In this document: in pieces, positions 14,283 through 63,863 of the stretch | How positions within the stretch are numbered: position 1 is the stretch's first letter | Layout: the number at the start of each line of letters is the position of its first letter | From: Rhizobium leguminosarum | Lineage (GTDB): Bacteria > Pseudomonadota > Alphaproteobacteria > Rhizobiales > Rhizobiaceae | Length of the DNA: 64,000 nt | Assembly: GCF_002953715.1 (NCBI RefSeq) | Contig: NZ_CP025012.1 | Span: 1-64,000, forward strand | Reading direction: 5' to 3' | Translations under genes and position numbers: made by a program | Notes under the pieces: model-generated | Database searches by the model: none | Seen by the model: only the letters and a program-made list of their open reading frames with translations | Told to the model about the DNA's origin: nothing

Positions 14283-14306
14283 AAGCGCATCGCATGCGAT
14301 GCGCTT
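14283..14306. repeat. Perfect 24 bp palindrome at the corC stop codon
   Basis: AAGCGCATCG and its complement meet around a central CATG, giving a perfect 24 nt palindrome. Its last base is the first base of the corC stop codon on the minus strand. On that strand a T-rich stretch (TTTTT) follows about 12 nt after the stem, so it may help end corC transcription. Confidence 0.6.
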
Positions 14307-15451
14307 TAGTTGGCGGTCGATTCCGCCGGCCGGTCGTCGCCGGCCTCGGAGCCGGGAGCAGCGTCGCCATCCGCCTTGGCGCGGCGGCGGATCGCGTGGC
14401 GCTTGCGGGTGATGCGCAGCCGCTTGATGCGGCGCGGATCGGCGTCGAGGATGTGGAATTCGAAGCCCGGCAGCGCCTGGACGACTTCGCCGCGCACTGG
14501 GATGCGGCCGAGTGCCGAGAAGATCAGGCCGCCCAGCGTATCGACCTCGTCGACCTGCTCGCTGATGTCGAAATCCGGCCCGATCGCTGCGGCGATCTCT
14601 TCCAGTTCGACGCGGGCGTCGGCGATGAACATGTCCTCGGCGACGCGCTTGAACATCACCTCTTCGTCGTCATGTTCGTCGTCGATGTCGCCGACCACCA
14701 TCTCGACGATGTCCTCATGCGAGGCAAGCCCGTCAGTGCCGCCATATTCGTCGATGACGAGCGCCATCTGCGTGCGGTTGACCTGCATCCGGCGCAACAG
14801 GTCGGACGCCAGCATCGACGGCGGCACGAACAGGATCTTGCGGACGATGCCGGCCTCGGCCAGCGTCTTCTGCAGGTCGACGCGGGCGAGATCGAAATTC
14901 GGCTTGGCCGAGCGCGTGGTCTTCTGGATGTTTTCGGGCGCAACCTCGATCGCCGGCAGGGCAACGGCGGGCTTCGTCGGGCCTCGGCGCTTGTTGCGCG
15001 CCTGTTTGGCGACATAGGAGAGCAGGTCACGGATATGCACCATGCCGCGCGGATCGTCGAGCGTATCGGCATAGACAGGCATGCGCGAGCGGCCGGATTC
15101 CTCGAAGAGGATCATCAGTTCGCCGATGGTGATGTTCTGGTCGACCGCCTCGATATCGGCGCGCGGCACCATCACGTCGGCGACGCGTACCTCGCGAAAG
15201 CGCAGGATGTTGTTGAGCATCGCCCGTTCGTCGGGCGAAAAGGCGTCGTCGCCGGCCGCATCGGTCATCAGCGCGTCGGCGAGATCCTCACGCAGTCGCG
15301 AGCCTTGTTGCGGGCGAAGGATGCGCGCGGCGCGCGACCAGAAGGATTGCGATCGGCCGGATGGCCGACTACTACTGCCTGCCTCGTCCGAAGAGGAGGA
15401 TGGCTCGGAGTCCTTGGCGTCTGCCGCCGGCTTCGTCGTAAAGTCGCTCAT
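14306..15451 (-). CDS. corC: CBS-domain hemolysin-family protein (CorC/YbeX type)
   Basis: A 381 aa cytosolic protein with a Ser-rich N-terminus, a CBS pair (from about [14 protein letters not shown] to the second CBS around [19 protein letters not shown]) and a CorC_HlyC C-terminal domain. CorC homologues are linked to magnesium/cobalt efflux and, next to ybeY, to ribosome and envelope maintenance. It overlaps ybeY by 4 nt in the phoH-ybeY-corC-lnt order found across proteobacteria. There is no transmembrane DUF21 domain, so it is the short form. Confidence 0.88.
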
Positions 15452-18452: not shown

Positions 18453-18502
18453 GGCGCGCTATTTAGTGGTTTTTGCCGCCGGAGAAAATCGAAATCTTGC
18501 TT

Positions 18503-18774
18503 TAGAGCCTTTCCTGGTCAGATTGCAGCATTCTGTTGGCTCAAACGGAGTCGGATGGTCGACCGGCCGGCGCGCGTCGTAGCCAAGCTCTACGGCCAAG
18601 CCGGCCGGTCGATCAGCCGGCCCGTTTCAGCCAACCCGAAGGGCCGGGCATCTTTCCGCCAGGGCAGAGGCGATCGGCTCGGACGTACCAAGGGGTATGC
18701 CCTTCGCCAATCGCCTCTGCCCTGACGAAAACCTGCTCCGGCAGAATGCTGCAATCTGACCAGGAAAGGCTCTA
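18503..18774 (-). mobile_element. 272 bp MITE-like palindromic element, copy A
   Basis: Perfect 33 nt terminal inverted repeats (18503-18535 and 18742-18774, beginning TAGAGCCTTTCCTGGTCAG). Inside are a 13 bp imperfect hairpin (18536-18548 with 18622-18634) and a 14 bp perfect hairpin (18661-18674 with 18710-18723). It has TA at both outer ends and no coding capacity. It is about 96% identical to the copy at 56446-56717 in the opposite orientation. Strand sign is arbitrary. Its last three bases form the stop codon of plsC. Together with short flanks it fills the 319 bp miaB-plsC gap. Confidence 0.88.
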
Positions 18775-19569
18775 AGAGATTTCCCGCCCGCGCAGGCGGC
18801 TGTTCAGGAGGTTGCGGATGCGCAAGGCGATTGTCGCGCTCACCTCCTTGCGGCTGGTCTCGGCGCGGTAATCCACCGCCTCGCCGAAGGAAACTTCGGC
18901 GTCGATGGCGCCACAGCGCACGATGTCGATGAGATGCGGCAAGAGGTCGAGATCTCCCGGCCAGGCCGCGAGCCGCCGATGATAACGCCCCATGGCGATG
19001 CCGTGCACCCTGGTATAGGCAACCGCCACCGGCTGCACCACGACCGTTCCCGTCGGCGACGTGGGCACTGCCATCGCGGCGGCGCCGAACAGCGAGGACT
19101 TGACCTCCAGCAGCCGGTTGCCGTCCGAGGTCGTGCCTTCCGGGAAGAGCACGACGATCTCACCGTCGGCCATGCGCCCGGCGATCTCGTTTGCCTGATG
19201 ACCGGTCTTGCGCCGCTCCTCGCGCACGACGAAGACGCTCTTCTGCAGCTTGGCGAGCGTGCCGAAGATCGGCCAGTCGCGCACCTCGATCTTGGCAATG
19301 AAGACGACGTCGGCAACGGCCGACATCACCATGATATCCAGCCAGGAGGAATGGTTGGAACAGAGCATCAGCGGCCGGCGATCTTCCAGCTTGCCGCTCA
19401 CGCGGACGCGGATGCCGAGACAATAGCAGACGATCCGGTGCCAGACGCGCGGAAGCCGGCGGCGCAGCCGCCAGTCGAACCACAGCGCCAGTACCTGCAG
19501 CGGCATGAGCACGATGCTGACGGCAAGGATGACGACCGCGGCGAAGGCGATGCGCAGCCAGGCGATCAA
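18772..19569 (-). CDS. plsC: 1-acyl-sn-glycerol-3-phosphate acyltransferase (PlsC family)
   Basis: A 265 aa membrane acyltransferase of phospholipid synthesis. It has an N-terminal hydrophobic segment (IAFAAVVILAVSIVLMPLQV), the catalytic NHSSWLD (NHxxxxD) and the FPEGTTSDG glycerophosphate-binding motif. OlsA-type lyso-ornithine-lipid acyltransferases look alike, so the acceptor is not certain. It follows mur by 27 nt. The stop codon TAG lies inside the terminal repeat of the 272 bp element, so the C-terminus may have been set by that insertion. Confidence 0.85.
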   Translation of the reverse strand: MIAWLRIAFAAVVILAVSIVLMPLQVLALWFDWRLRRRLPRVWHRIVCYCLGIRVRVSGKLEDRRPLMLCSNHSSWLDIMVMSAVADVVFIAKIEVRDWPIFGTLAKLQKSVFVVREERRKTGHQANEIAGRMADGEIVVLFPEGTTSDGNRLLEVKSSLFGAAAMAVPTSPTGTVVVQPVAVAYTRVHGIAMGRYHRRLAAWPGDLDLLPHLIDIVRCGAIDAEVSFGEAVDYRAETSRKEVSATIALRIRNLLNSRLRGREIS

Positions 19570-32698: not shown

Positions 32699-34984
32699 AT
32701 GCCCGATATCGATAAGAAGGACCGGCCGGTGACCTCGGTTACCGACCAGGAGGCGCTCGAATTTCACGCAATGGGCCGGCCCGGCAAGCTGGAGATCAAC
32801 CCGACCAAGCCGATGGCGACGCAGCGCGACCTCTCGCTGGCCTATTCGCCGGGTGTTGCCGTACCCGTCAAGGCAATCGCCGCCGATCCGCAGACGGCCT
32901 ATGATTACACGGCCCGCGGCAACATGGTCGCCGTCATTTCCAACGGCACGGCAATCCTCGGTCTCGGCAATCTCGGGGCGCTGGCCTCCAAGCCCGTCAT
33001 GGAAGGCAAGGCGGTGCTGTTCAAGCGCTTCGCCGACGTCGATTCCATCGACCTCGAGATCGATACGGAAAATGTCGACGAGTTCATCAACTGCGTGCGC
33101 TTCCTCGGTCCCTCCTTCGGCGGCATCAACCTCGAGGATATCAAGGCGCCGGACTGTTTCGTCATCGAAAGCCGGCTGCGCGAGCTGATGGATATCCCCG
33201 TCTTCCATGACGACCAGCATGGAACGGCGATCATCGCCGCTGCCGGCCTGATCAACGCGCTGGAACTGACCGGCCGCGACCTGAAGACGACGAAGCTCGT
33301 CTGCAACGGTGCGGGTGCTGCGGCGATCGCCTGCGTCGAACTGATCAAGGCGATGGGGTTTGCGCCTGAGAACGTCATCCTCTGCGATACCAAGGGCGTC
33401 ATCTACCAGGGCCGCACCGAGGGCATGAACCAGTGGAAATCGGCGCATGCGGCAAAGACCGACACACGCACGCTGGAAGAGGCGATGGAGGGCGCGGACG
33501 TCGTTTTCGGCCTGTCGCAGAAGGGCGCGTTTTCGGCCGAGATGATCCGCTCGATGGCGGAGCGGCCGATCATCTTCGCCATGGCCAATCCCGATCCCGA
33601 GATCACGCCGGAAGAGGTGGCCCGCATCCGCGACGACGCCATCATGGCGACGGGCCGTTCGGACTATCCGAATCAGGTCAACAACGTCCTCGGTTTTCCC
33701 TATATCTTCCGCGGCGCTCTCGATGTGCGCGCCTCCACAATCAATGACGCGATGAAGATCGCCGCCGTCAAGGCGTTGGCAAACCTCGCCCGCGAGGACG
33801 TGCCGGATGACGTGGTCGCCGCCTATCAGGGCAACCGGCCGCGTTTCGGGTCGCAATATATCATCCCAGTTCCCTTCGATCCCAGGCTGATCTCGGCGAT
33901 CCCGGTCGCGGTCGCGCAAGCTGCGATCGAAAGCGGTGTCGCCCGCAAGGTCATCACCGACATGGCCGGTTATGCCCGCGAGCTTTCGGCGCGCCGCGAT
34001 CCGATCGCCTCGACGCTCGCCAGGCTCTACGAGCGTGTCCGCCGGCATCCGAAGCGGATCGTCTTTGCCGAGGCCGAGGAAGAACAGGTCCTGCGCGCGG
34101 CGATGTCCTATGCCAACCAGCAGCTCGGCACCGCCATTCTGCTCGGCCGCGAGGATCTGATCCGGGCGACGGCGGAACGCGCCGGCATCGATCTCAACCG
34201 GCCAGGCCTCGAGATCGTCAATGCCCGTATCTCGACCCGGGTCGAGGCCTATATCGATTATCTCTATGCCAGGCTGCAGCGGCGGGGTTATCTGCACCGC
34301 GACGCCCAGCGACTGATCCACAACGACCGCAACCACTTCGCCGCCACCATGGTGGCGCTCGGCGACGCCGACGGCATGGTGACGGGCATTACCCGCAACT
34401 ATTCGACGGCACTCGAAGATGTGCGCCGCTGCATCGACGAGAAGCCCGGCCACCGCGTCATCGGCGTATCCCTGGCGCTCTGCCGCGGCCGCACCGTCTT
34501 CGTTGCCGATACCGCGGTGCATGACATGCCGACGGCCGAGGAGCTTGCCGATATCGCCGAGGAAGCCGCAGGTCTGGCGCGGCGCATGGGTTATCCGCCG
34601 CGTGTCGCCCTGCTTGCCTATTCCACCTTCGGCCATCCCTCGGGCGAACGTTCCGAGCGGGTGCGCGAAGCGGTGAAGATCCTCGACAAGCGCCGCGTCG
34701 ATTTCGAATATGACGGCGAAATGGCCGCCGATGTCGCCCTGAACCGCAAGGTGATGGAGCAATATCCCTTCTGCCGCCTCTCCGGCCCGGCCAACGTGCT
34801 CGTCATGCCGGCTTTCCACTCGGCCTCGATCTCGACCAAGATGCTGCAGGAGCTCGGCGGCTCCACGGTCATCGGCCCGATCCTGGTCGGCGTCGACAAG
34901 TCGGTGCAGATCACCTCGATGGGCGCCAAGGACAGCGACATCGTCAACATGGCGGCGATCGCCGCCTATGGGGCTGGTTCATAA
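32699..34984 (+). CDS. tme: Malic enzyme with phosphotransacetylase-like C-terminal domain
   Basis: Oxidatively decarboxylates malate to pyruvate. The 761 aa chimera has a malic enzyme domain (about 1-430: RDLSLAYSPGVAVPVKAI, FHDDQHGTAI, LVCNGAGAAAIAC) joined to a phosphotransacetylase-like domain (about 440-761) that is regulatory rather than catalytic in this family. Rhizobia have an NAD form (dme, needed for symbiotic nitrogen fixation) and an NADP form (tme). Position beside mutS and olsB matches tme of Sinorhizobium, so I infer NADP use; sequence alone does not prove it. Confidence 0.88.
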   Translation: MPDIDKKDRPVTSVTDQEALEFHAMGRPGKLEINPTKPMATQRDLSLAYSPGVAVPVKAIAADPQTAYDYTARGNMVAVISNGTAILGLGNLGALASKPVMEGKAVLFKRFADVDSIDLEIDTENVDEFINCVRFLGPSFGGINLEDIKAPDCFVIESRLRELMDIPVFHDDQHGTAIIAAAGLINALELTGRDLKTTKLVCNGAGAAAIACVELIKAMGFAPENVILCDTKGVIYQGRTEGMNQWKSAHAAKTDTRTLEEAMEGADVVFGLSQKGAFSAEMIRSMAERPIIFAMANPDPEITPEEVARIRDDAIMATGRSDYPNQVNNVLGFPYIFRGALDVRASTINDAMKIAAVKALANLAREDVPDDVVAAYQGNRPRFGSQYIIPVPFDPRLISAIPVAVAQAAIESGVARKVITDMAGYARELSARRDPIASTLARLYERVRRHPKRIVFAEAEEEQVLRAAMSYANQQLGTAILLGREDLIRATAERAGIDLNRPGLEIVNARISTRVEAYIDYLYARLQRRGYLHRDAQRLIHNDRNHFAATMVALGDADGMVTGITRNYSTALEDVRRCIDEKPGHRVIGVSLALCRGRTVFVADTAVHDMPTAEELADIAEEAAGLARRMGYPPRVALLAYSTFGHPSGERSERVREAVKILDKRRVDFEYDGEMAADVALNRKVMEQYPFCRLSGPANVLVMPAFHSASISTKMLQELGGSTVIGPILVGVDKSVQITSMGAKDSDIVNMAAIAAYGAGS

Positions 34985-35100: not shown

Positions 35101-35197
35101 GGTTTTCCCAGGCAAAGCGCGAAAGCGGTTTTGCCGGGAATTGCGCAAAACAAAAGGATAGAGCGGTTCTGTGCTTCCGTTTAAAGCTGAACCGCTC
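35101..35197. repeat. Palindromic intergenic unit in the tme-AraC gap
   Basis: Two stem-loops in tandem: GTTTTGC / GCAAAAC (35128-35134 with 35145-35151) and GAGCGGTTC / GAACCGCTC (35161-35169 with 35189-35197, with an inner GCTT/AAGC pairing). The composite layout resembles other rhizobial dispersed palindromes; no second copy is in the window. Confidence 0.5.
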
Positions 35198-35353: not shown

Positions 35354-36343
35354 ATGCCAGAAAACGCATCTCCCAATTTCATCGCCCGATTTCAGGGGGC
35401 AACTTTCGACGATATGGTCGAGGCTCTGACCAAGGGGTTCGGTTCGTTCGACGCATGGCGCAATGGTCGAGAGAAACCACTCGACTGGAAGGTCGGGTTT
35501 TGGGGTGATGAAAGGTTGTCGCTGGTCAGCAACCAGGATTCCGGCGGCTGGGGTGCAAGAACGGCACACGGAACGCCGGAAACTCTGGCAATCATCATGC
35601 CGCGTACGGGTGCTCTCGATGTAACGCTTGGTCGGACTGTGATCGAAGGGACACCTGGGCGGCTGTTGTTGATGAACAATCTCGAGCCGGAACGGGTTTC
35701 CGTACGGGCAGCGCCGCACCGATCAGACACACTGAGTCTGAGCTGGACAATCATCGCTCAGACCGTCGCCGCCGTATTGGAGACCCCCCTGACCGGGGCA
35801 ATGGACTTGGCACCGGTCATTGATCTTTCCACGGCGGCGGGCCAGTTGATCGGCAGCCTCGCCCAAACGATCATCAGTGGCATGCGCAACAACGGGCCGC
35901 TACTTCACTCGCCAATCGCCATGTTGAACCTGATCCAGGCGTTTGCCGATCTGCTGGTGCGCTCGGTTCCTCATCGGCTCTCGCATCTTCTTGACAAGAA
36001 AATCCATCTGATCGCACCACGGCATGTCCGTCGGGCGATTGAATTTATGCATGCGAACATCGCACAGCCACTGACGATGCAGAGTGTCGCGGAGGCGGCA
36101 GGCATTTCCATTCGCGCTCTTGAAAGCGGTTTTCGTGCCTTCAAGGGAACCACGCCGGCTGCCTACCTCAGGACGATCCGCTTGCAAGCGGTCCGGGAGG
36201 ATCTGCACGATCCTTCAAACCGGCAGCCGTTGCGGGACATCTGCTTGAAGTGGGGATTCTTCCACTTTGGCCGCTTTGCAGCAACCTATCGGGCGGCGTA
36301 TGGAGAGAACCCGTCGGACACCAGAAGGCGATCCGATCACTAG
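35354..36343 (+). CDS. AraC-family transcriptional regulator
   Basis: A 329 aa regulator with an N-terminal cupin-like sensing domain of the AraC_binding_2 type and a C-terminal pair of helix-turn-helix motifs: QPLTMQSVAEAAGISIRALE, then the second HTH with WGFFHFGRFAATYRAAYGENPS, matching the AraC signature. It sits alone between tme and olsB, which are neighbours in Sinorhizobium. Its codon use appears less GC-rich than the genes around it, which suggests a later arrival. No target gene is adjacent. Ligand unknown. Confidence 0.85.
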   Translation: MPENASPNFIARFQGATFDDMVEALTKGFGSFDAWRNGREKPLDWKVGFWGDERLSLVSNQDSGGWGARTAHGTPETLAIIMPRTGALDVTLGRTVIEGTPGRLLLMNNLEPERVSVRAAPHRSDTLSLSWTIIAQTVAAVLETPLTGAMDLAPVIDLSTAAGQLIGSLAQTIISGMRNNGPLLHSPIAMLNLIQAFADLLVRSVPHRLSHLLDKKIHLIAPRHVRRAIEFMHANIAQPLTMQSVAEAAGISIRALESGFRAFKGTTPAAYLRTIRLQAVREDLHDPSNRQPLRDICLKWGFFHFGRFAATYRAAYGENPSDTRRRSDH

Positions 36344-54942: not shown

Positions 54943-56439
54943 ATGACCGCCCAGCAGACCGACAATGCCCTCAGGCAGCGCCTCGATTTCATCGAACTGG
55001 ATGATGCAGCGCGCAAGTCGATGCGGGATCTGCGCCCTGTCATATCAGAGCTGATCGGCGGCGCCCTCGATAAATTCTACGCCAAGATCGCCAAGACCCC
55101 CGCTGTCGCAGGCTTCTTCGCCGATAAGAACCATGTCGGCTATGCCAAGAAGCGCCAGCAGGATCATTGGGCCAATCTGGCCGGCGGCGCGTTCGACGAG
55201 AGCTATGTCAACGGCGTGACCGCGGTCGGCCGGACGCACGCCCGCATCGGGCTGGAGCCGCGCTGGTATATTGGCGGTTACGCCATCGTCATGTCCGAGC
55301 TCGTCAAAGGCATCATGGAGAAGCAGTGGCCGTCGATCTTCGGGCGCCAGCAAGGCAAGCAGTTGGCCGAGAAGCTGTCGGCCGTCATCAAGGCTGGCAT
55401 GCTGGACATGGATTATTCCATCTCGGTCTATCTCGAGACGCTCGAAGCAAAGCGCCGCGTCTTGGAAGAAGAGCGTGCCCAGGCCGAATCCGATCAGGCG
55501 ATCGCGCTGGAGCAGCTGCGCCGCGGTCTGGAAGCGCTGTCGAACGGCGATCTCGAAGCCACCCTGCCGTCCGACCTGCCGGGCAATTTCCGGCAGATGG
55601 CCGAGGACTACAACCGCGCCGTCAGCGCCCTTCGCCAGTCCTTCGCCTCTGTGCGCGAGACCTCGGGCCATATCATGAGCGGCGCCGACGTCATTTCCAA
55701 TGCGACCAACGATCTGGCGCTGCGCACTGCCCAGCAGGCGGCAGGAGTCGAGCAGAGTTCGGCCGCCCTGCAGCAGCTGTCCGTCAGCGTCGGCCAGACG
55801 GCCGCCAATGCCGAGAAGGCTTCGGACGCCGTGCGCGAGACGCAAGAGAAGGCGAAGAACTCCGGCGAACTGGTCACCAGCGCCGTCTCGGCGATGGCCG
55901 GCATCGAGAAATCCTCGACCGGGATCTCCAAGATCATCGGCGTCATCGATGAGATCGCCTTCCAGACCAATCTGCTGGCGCTGAACGCCGGCGTCGAGGC
56001 GGCCCGCGCCGGCGATGCCGGCAAGGGTTTTGCCGTCGTCGCTCAGGAAGTCCGCCAGCTCGCCCAGCGCACCGCGGAAGCGGCCAAGGAGATCAAGAAC
56101 CTGATCTCGCAGAGCTCGACCCAGGTCAATCAGGGCGTCGGCATCGTCTCCAGCACCGGCGAAGCGCTAAACGACATGATCAGCCGCATCGACATCATCA
56201 ACCGTTTCGTCGCCGATATCGCCGCCGCCGCCCGCGATCAGGCGACCGGCGTCAACGAGGTCAGCGTCGCCGTCCGCAACATGGGTGCGATTACCCAGCA
56301 GAATTCGGACATGGTCGAGCACTCTTCGGCGGAAACCCGCCGTCTCAAGGACGAGGTGGAAACCCTGATCGAGCTGCTGCGGCGCTTCCGCGCCCGGCCG
56401 GAGGGCCGTTCCGCCAGTGCTGCCCGCCGGGCGGCCTGA
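54943..56439 (+). CDS. Globin-coupled methyl-accepting chemotaxis protein
   Basis: A 498 aa cytoplasmic chemoreceptor without transmembrane segments. An N-terminal protoglobin domain (about 1-180) has the globin-coupled-sensor motif [19 protein letters not shown] with the proximal heme ligand His99, then a HAMP-like segment ([18 protein letters not shown]) and an MCP signalling domain whose tip is [22 protein letters not shown]. By family (HemAT/IcpA) it probably senses oxygen for aerotaxis. No che genes are adjacent. It is directly followed by the second 272 bp element. Confidence 0.92.
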
Positions 56440-56445
56440 GGCGAA

Positions 56446-56717
56446 TAGAGCCTTTCCTGGTCAGCTTGAAGCATTCTGCCGGAGCAGGTTTTCGTCAGGG
56501 CAAAGGCGATTGGCGAAAGGCATACCCCAAGGTACGTCCGAGCCGATCGCCTTTGCCCTGGCGGAAAGATGCCCGGCCCTTCGGGTTGGCTGAAACGGGC
56601 CGGCTGATCGACCGGCCGGCTTGGCCGTAGAGCTTGGCTACGACGCGCGCCGGCCGGTCGACCATCCGACTCCGTTTGAGCCAACAGAATGTTTCAAGCT
56701 GACCAGGAAAGGCTCTA
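56446..56717 (+). mobile_element. 272 bp MITE-like palindromic element, copy B
   Basis: Inverted copy of the element at 18503-18774, same length, ten differences. Terminal inverted repeats of 33 nt (56446-56478 and 56685-56717) differ at one base; TA stands at each outer end. It begins 7 nt after the chemoreceptor stop and ends 89 nt before def, filling most of the 367 bp gap. No credible coding sequence. Confidence 0.88.
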
Positions 56718-63723: not shown

Positions 63724-63752
63724 AAGGCAAGGGCAAGTCGTCGTCCGGCCTT

Positions 63753-63863
63753 AGAGCATGATGCCGAAAAGTGTGAGCGGTTTTCGGACGACATCATGCT
63801 CTCACTCTTTAATTTAGAACAGGATTCAGATTTTAGGCCGATCCGGCCAAAAATCTTGTTCTA
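63753..63863. repeat. Composite palindromic element (two units)
   Basis: Unit 1 (63753-63802): AGAGCATGATG...CATCATGCTCT with inner CCGAAAA / TTTTCGG. Unit 2 (63815-63863): TAGAACA...TGTTCTA with inner GGCCGATCCGGCC, bounded by TA at both ends. The final CTA of unit 2 is the stop codon of the EF-hand gene on the minus strand. Confidence 0.75.

Follow-up and report, generated by a model that had tools for sequence, protein, structure and literature searches.

A repeat element at the plsC stop codon

The window analyzed here, the first 64,000 nucleotides of contig NZ_CP025012.1 of Rhizobium leguminosarum, carries at positions 18503-18774 a TA-bounded inverted repeat that resembles a miniature inverted-repeat transposable element (MITE) and is referred to below as family A; one of its ends coincides with the stop codon of a plsC-like acyltransferase gene. 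The features at this locus are as follows, the joined site being what is read when the element and one TA are removed.

18503-18774, no strand assigned: family A element, MITE-like, 272 bp, TA-bounded inverted repeat
18772-18774, minus strand: plsC stop codon TAG, made of the target TA (18774-18773) and the element's first base G (18772); joined site TAA
18772-19569, minus strand: plsC-like acyltransferase gene, 265 amino acids, Pfam Acyltransferase E 3e-23; C-terminus ..LRGREIS

A preliminary description of this stretch had stated that plsC stops at a TAG in the last three bases of the element, and this is true: positions 18772-18774 read CTA on the plus strand, i.e. TAG on the minus strand, the stop of the PlsC open reading frame (ORF). 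Strictly, only the G (18772) is the element's own, the T and A (18774, 18773) being the target TA found at both ends. The same description had proposed that such elements reset the C-termini of genes, and had named beforehand, as a test, an alignment of the PlsC and EF-hand protein C-termini with element-free orthologues. For PlsC, 13 genomes of the same genus gave 12 orthologues (G003, 82% complete, gave a weak match only), and all 12 end at the same codon, as judged by eye, with tails GREIS, GRDIG, GREIA, GRDAA or GQKAV; tails outside the genus differ. The element is present at the end of plsC in 2 of the 12 (the source genome and G011) and not in the other 10, where the stop is TAA in three (G005, G001 and G008) and TGA in seven (including G007, G009 and G012). 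The C-terminus is thus the same with and without the element, which speaks against a reset. Taking the element and one TA out of the window leaves GAA ATC TCT TAA AGC AAG ATT, a reading identical to that of G005, and the element would therefore most likely have entered the TA of a pre-existing TAA stop of plsC, turning that stop into TAG. In other genomes the element found at this TA is 270-356 bp long, with its interior in both orientations (e.g. L096 and L105 vs L181), which may reflect inversion between the arms or repeated insertion. For the three largest sets of copies at one site, none is monophyletic in trees built on about 270 bp, so that repeated insertion and gene conversion are indistinguishable.

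Family A has several traits of a MITE. The outer arms of the window element, 34 bp each (18502-18535 and 18742-18775), are 100% complementary and enclose two inner palindromes, the ends of the sequence read TA-GAGCC...GGCTC-TA with G as the first base of its own, and the ORFs across it are either short or enter from outside and read through the palindromes. Copies are dispersed, and relatives show empty sites. Both ends are TA in 158 of 200 copies and a single TA stands at empty sites; this may reflect a target-site duplication, but an element entering between the T and the A, with nothing duplicated, would leave the same pattern.

Target site preference

Insertion loci were defined as 133 clusters by flank similarity. 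As they stand, the targets at these loci are CTAG in 39, TTAA in 22, TTAG in 18 and CTAA in 18, together 97/133 matching YTAR (Y, pyrimidine; R, purine), and this number rises to 116/133 once the TA is restored; the wider context of the insertions shows YTAR without a clear longer motif. Genes that read into the element stop exactly at TA-G in 103 of 109 reads, at 57 of the 133 loci. The joined codon, read directly, is TAA or TAG in 85 of these 103 reads; for the other 18, an A in place of the changed outer base at the opposite end would give TAA or TAG in 14 but not in the remaining four (TAC, TAC, TAT and TGC). Element junctions at the non-stop end appear altered beyond single mutations.

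The possibility of non-TA targets, whereby ends reading G-A or C-A would stand for other dinucleotides or for TGA stops, was considered as well. It was dropped after the relatives of two such loci had been compared, because TA occupies the insertion point in several element-free relatives of L321 and in the two nearest of L322, and orthologous copies of family A vary at the outer base.

Enrichment of insertions at stop codons

The loci examined numbered 228 and gave 212 element pairs. The analysis used the 200 pairs flanked on each side by 300 bp or more, leaving out 12 pairs and 41 unpaired ends. Gene calling relied on a 3-periodic Markov model that had been trained on the window plus 39 of the loci and whose calls in the window resemble ordinary annotation; the window and 198 loci supplied the background YTAR sites. 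Stop codons hold the insertion at 50 of the 133 loci. After the TA had been restored at 20 loci with a changed outer base, these 50 comprise 42 single stops and 8 stops shared by convergent genes, and the remaining loci divide into 34 at most 50 bp from a 3' end, 44 at a greater distance and 5 with the insertion in coding sequence. With the analysis confined to TA targets (113/133 loci), the insertions fall in stop codons at 43, between genes at 66 and in coding sequence at 4. Stop codons account for 4.9% of non-coding TA, and when sites are matched by 4-mer, 10.9 of 109 insertions would be expected there as against the 43 observed, an enrichment of about 4-fold.

Set against background YTAR sites, insertions number 38 per 152 sites at single stops, 8 per 1 at shared stops, 32 per 210 within 50 bp of a 3' end, 36 per 1172 farther away and 2 per 409 in coding sequence. 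Upstream insertions are rarer than downstream ones, with 8 against 306 background sites within 100 bp of a 5' end. The scan by exact pattern is biased to intact TAG and hence to stops, and 7 of the 13 clusters found only in that way are in stops. Among the 120 loci that have a BLAST-found copy, 42 of 114 non-coding insertions are in stops and 6 insertions are coding; for the non-coding YTAR loci of this set, the share in stops is 39/102 compared with 10.0% expected (p 3e-14). The second check proposed in the preliminary description was a genome-wide count of stop overlaps against random expectation; the count over the loci sampled here indicates that the overlap is no coincidence.

Distribution and variants of family A

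The window contains a second copy, which begins 6 nucleotides (nt) past the stop of the plus-strand gene at 54943-56439 and hence lies outside the stop codon.

56446-56717, no strand assigned: second family A copy in the window, with its interior in the opposite orientation

The source genome carries four complete copies plus several variants, and a match at E <= 1e-30 occurs in 62 of 120 genomes of the genus. An exact scan with 19 bases of the element end returned 78 stretches in named records, 69 of them from Rhizobium, 8 from records labeled Rhizobiales bacterium and 1 from Sinorhizobium. Paired copies span 45-357 bp. Nine loci (L062, L063, L080, L086, L103, L106, L134, L137 and L138) carry 49-bp solo forms, apparently two ends fused at CAG, and one shared site has 49 bp in R. 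johnstonii vs 216 bp in R. ecuadorense. In Sinorhizobium kostiense, a 33-bp remnant of family A (L083:3904-3936) makes the stop codon of a gene that we take to encode a peptidase-like protein. A 1.6-kb version in Rhizobium sp. BK650 (L078:1269-2867), the sole long pair of terminal inverted repeats among the loci examined, holds an ORF of 226 amino acids between the same ends, without a Pfam match. At the Rfam gathering scores, the window gave no match.

Related families at the EF-hand and corC genes

Two more genes of the window end at a palindromic element, each of a different family.

63752-63863, no strand assigned: family B element (TAGAGCATGATG...CTTGTTCTA), TA-bounded, with imperfect end repeats
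63861-63863, minus strand: EF-hand gene stop codon TAG, made of the target TA and the family B end
14306-14308, minus strand: corC stop codon TAA, overlapping the terminal bases of a third palindrome (family D)

The EF-hand gene, which encodes a protein of 210 amino acids (Pfam EF-hand), does end in the manner previously described, at a different TA-bounded element: positions 63861-63863 read CTA. Its product ends at the same codon in 10/10 orthologues, the source genome included, with the tail ..DDMP[DNG]RP[LF][LP], so that here too the second protein named for the alignment test shows no reset. The stop that holds family B in the window is occupied in G007 and G002 by family C (TAGAGCAATTCC or a close variant). 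In the source genome, 15 of 30 family B loci are in a stop codon (15/28 of the non-coding ones, p 1e-8), as are 11 of 28 family C loci (p 4e-5; 2 of 30 loci without clean ends were left out). These two further families have TAGAGC/TAGAAC ends and behave at stop codons as family A does; across families A to C, 37-54% of the inspected non-coding insertions lie within stop codons.

For corC, the contact itself stands, in that the stop TAA (14308-14306) is the first three bases of the family D palindrome. As a third case of the stop-codon rule it finds no support: stop-codon overlap was seen in 1 of 10 family D loci (10 of 45 matches, judged from stops near the match ends), which is not shown to be above chance. 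CorC of the source genome, G005, G007 and G009 has a common end codon, with stops TAA, TAA, TGA and TAG, respectively, whereas more distant CorC proteins have other tails, and in G006 a family C-like repeat sits at the corC stop.

Elsewhere, a family C-like copy lies at 35108-35197 of the window, between the genes at 32699-34984 and 35414-36343 and not at a stop codon, and G000:C1:563883-564084 holds tandem repeats of the family D (corC) type, 57 bp apart.

Annotated plasmids and empty sites

For comparison with the NCBI annotation, matches were sought on plasmids and occurred in 159 records. Seventeen of 60 listed places, hand-picked for varied context from a list displaying feature names, were opened, one of which was without annotation. 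In 9 of the 16 annotated places, or 8 of 14 contexts once the duplicates H33/H35 and H38/H53 are counted singly, the stop of a coding sequence (CDS) falls on the last three bases of the element. The plasmid copy C3:205196 of the source genome ends a gene for an ATP-binding cassette (ABC) transporter; each of the 4 records opened among 234 matching public plasmids has this CDS at 813 nt. Two of the four have no element at the stop codon, which reads TAG in BT01 (L375) and TAA in TP23 (L378); the codon is occupied in TP24 by a truncated family A copy and in UPM791 by family C.

At L312, where family A sits at a shared stop, three element-free relatives (L408, L414 and L419) among 14 compared have both stops on one TA, and L414 provides the exact empty site with the shared TA; two other relatives, L420 and L421, carry family C at the shared stop, and the remaining relatives were not seen to share a TA. 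One and the same stop codon is therefore used by different families in different strains at the EF-hand, ABC-transporter and L312 sites.

Interpretation and alternative explanations

Our preferred reading, to which we assign a probability of about 0.8, is that MITE-like, YTAR-targeting elements persist where they are harmless and that the bias toward stop codons reflects the survival of harmless insertions, with purifying selection as its presumed main cause. A non-autonomous hairpin repeat, probably moved by a transposase of the IS630/Tc1-mariner type acting in trans, would insert at TA within YTAR, mostly CTAG and TTAA, and where the target TA formed the first two bases of a TAA or TAG stop, the insertion would rebuild TAG at the identical codon. 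Because YTAR reads TAR on either strand, any gene that has this TA in frame finds its stop there already, and with G as the element's first base after the TA, the stop becomes TAG again and the protein stays the same. Coding insertions, and many upstream ones, would be harmful and lost, so that the survivors would gather at stop codons and over the ~50 bp that follow them. The enrichment thus probably arises because an existing stop is rebuilt and the insertion does no harm; the earlier proposal that the overlap is favored holds to this extent, and the part of it that invoked resetting as the cause does not.

Several observations weigh against this reading. At plsC, most element-free relatives (7/10) have TGA rather than TAA, so that the TAA target rests on the joined site plus G005, G001 and G008. 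In loci L061-L138 and L181-L330, the T on the outside of the terminal TA has changed at 14 of 196 ends and the base beside it at 0 of 196 (24 and 3 of 266 in the whole set), an asymmetry that duplication of TA followed by random mutation does not explain. An autonomous partner with the same ends was not found among the family A loci (L078 and L083 inspected; no genome-wide transposase search was made). At L203, the plus-strand gene ends 5 codons earlier than in 13/13 relatives, perhaps through a later deletion. The excess of stops over the adjacent 50 bp is modest, about 2-fold (p 0.008 with shared stops, 0.066 without them and 0.048 in the BLAST-found set), and shared stops exceed single ones (8 insertions to 1 background site, p = 4e-5) beyond what harmlessness alone predicts, leaving part of the excess, that at convergent shared stops, unaccounted for.

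This last excess, together with the recurrence of different families at one stop, leaves room for a transposition machinery that homes actively on the 3' ends of genes or on sites of termination (a stop codon or a terminator hairpin), a form of safe-harbor targeting. The rate of insertion does peak at the stop codon and drops steeply past 50 bp, and at L321 the element sits between the two arms of a palindrome that resembles a terminator. On the other hand, the extended context offers YTAR and no clear longer motif, 44 of 133 insertions lie more than 50 bp from a 3' end, and the scarcity of coding insertions is as selection would give. We regard such targeting as an unlikely general explanation; slightly less unlikely, and still doubtful, is the narrower idea that the rhizobial families with ends TA-GAGC and TA-GAAC and YTAR targets actively seek termination sites, above all convergent shared stops. 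Were it true, mobile DNA would have a way to spread in gene-dense genomes without protein change. The hairpin might also be kept because it benefits the host gene, as a stabilizer of the mRNA 3' end or as a bidirectional terminator between convergent genes. The window element folds into one long branched hairpin of -207.9 kcal/mol (z = -20.6, 0/200 shuffles as good), and non-coding YTAR insertions, set against background sites, favor convergent arrangements (45/314) over tandem (51/673) and divergent ones (10/302). Palindromic repeats fold well whatever their role, however, and copies also lie upstream of genes, which makes a host benefit doubtful as the reason for the bias.

Far less probable is the idea that the element provides new stops, resets C-termini and in this way favors its own insertion. 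Changed C-termini do exist, few among the cases inspected: besides L203, an annotated CDS ends 19 nt inside the element at H39, and at L253 and L293 the joined site places the insertion 25 and 42 nt ahead of the end of the gene. An in-frame TA of a YTAR target is necessarily already a stop, however, the joined codons read directly are mostly TAA or TAG, and the end codon is the same among orthologues for plsC and the EF-hand gene, for which resetting is refuted. It is likewise rejected for the plasmid ABC gene, whose end is the same in the records compared, and for corC when set against its three nearest relatives. Least probable of all is chance, or an artefact of the home-made gene caller or of the choice of loci. 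The exact-pattern loci favor intact TAG, the background was drawn from the same loci and the plasmid places were picked from a list that showed feature names; yet the enrichment persists in the BLAST-found clusters (42/114) and under NCBI annotation (9/16), and the same gene caller gave only 1/10 for family D.

If survival of harmless insertions is the correct reading, a TAA or TAG stop is preserved whenever the entering element targets TA and begins with a G of its own, which would be a simple and testable spreading rule for dense bacterial genomes and would explain why a number of rhizobial genes close with TAG and a hairpin repeat after it. Those who annotate genomes or interpret 3' untranslated regions would meet stops that are partly made of mobile DNA, and the rule predicts which transposon ends can treat stop codons as neutral sites.

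Comparison with known repeat families

Family A targets TA with CTAG as the preferred context, and going by the title of a 1991 paper by Tenzen and Ohtsubo that PMC2170065 cites, IS630 reportedly prefers TA in CTAG as well. Among other repeats, Bru-RS is an alphaproteobacterial intergenic repeat, and YPAL tends to sit just downstream of stop codons. Of the YPAL/RU-2 repeats of Yersinia, YPAL is described as lacking TA termini and as making a duplication of 3-26 bp (PMC2229807), whereas family A is TA-ended in 158/200 copies, sits within the stop and rebuilds it. The MITEs of the IS630/Tc1-mariner group, such as RUP of pneumococcus and Correia/NEMIS, are portrayed in the same source as short, TA-ended repeats with inverted ends, scattered between genes (PMC2229807); family A is like them in these respects and unlike them in its two inner palindromes and, together with families B and C, in having 37-54% of the inspected non-coding insertions in stop codons. 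CIR is TA-ended and built with two inverted-repeat arms (PMC2229807), and CIR and RIME, compared here by description and not by sequence, are repeated intergenic elements of the same bacterial class as families A to C. The descriptions consulted for this group of repeats report no stop-codon rule. Nor was a stop-rebuilding rule found in the literature searched, which covered few subscription papers and parts of PMC2229807, PMC10969869, PMC5896051, PMC2759123, PMC2170065, PMC2245857 and PMC2873474. Insertion of RU-1 in enterobacteria and of QMITE2 in Coxiella is described as removing the stop and adding residues (PMC2759123, PMC5896051); family A resembles both in inserting at the 3' ends of genes and differs from both in that the stop is kept. 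Repeats of this general kind are thus known (PMC2229807), and, as far as these sources extend, the seating in stop codons and the rule by which the stop is rebuilt appear to be the new part.
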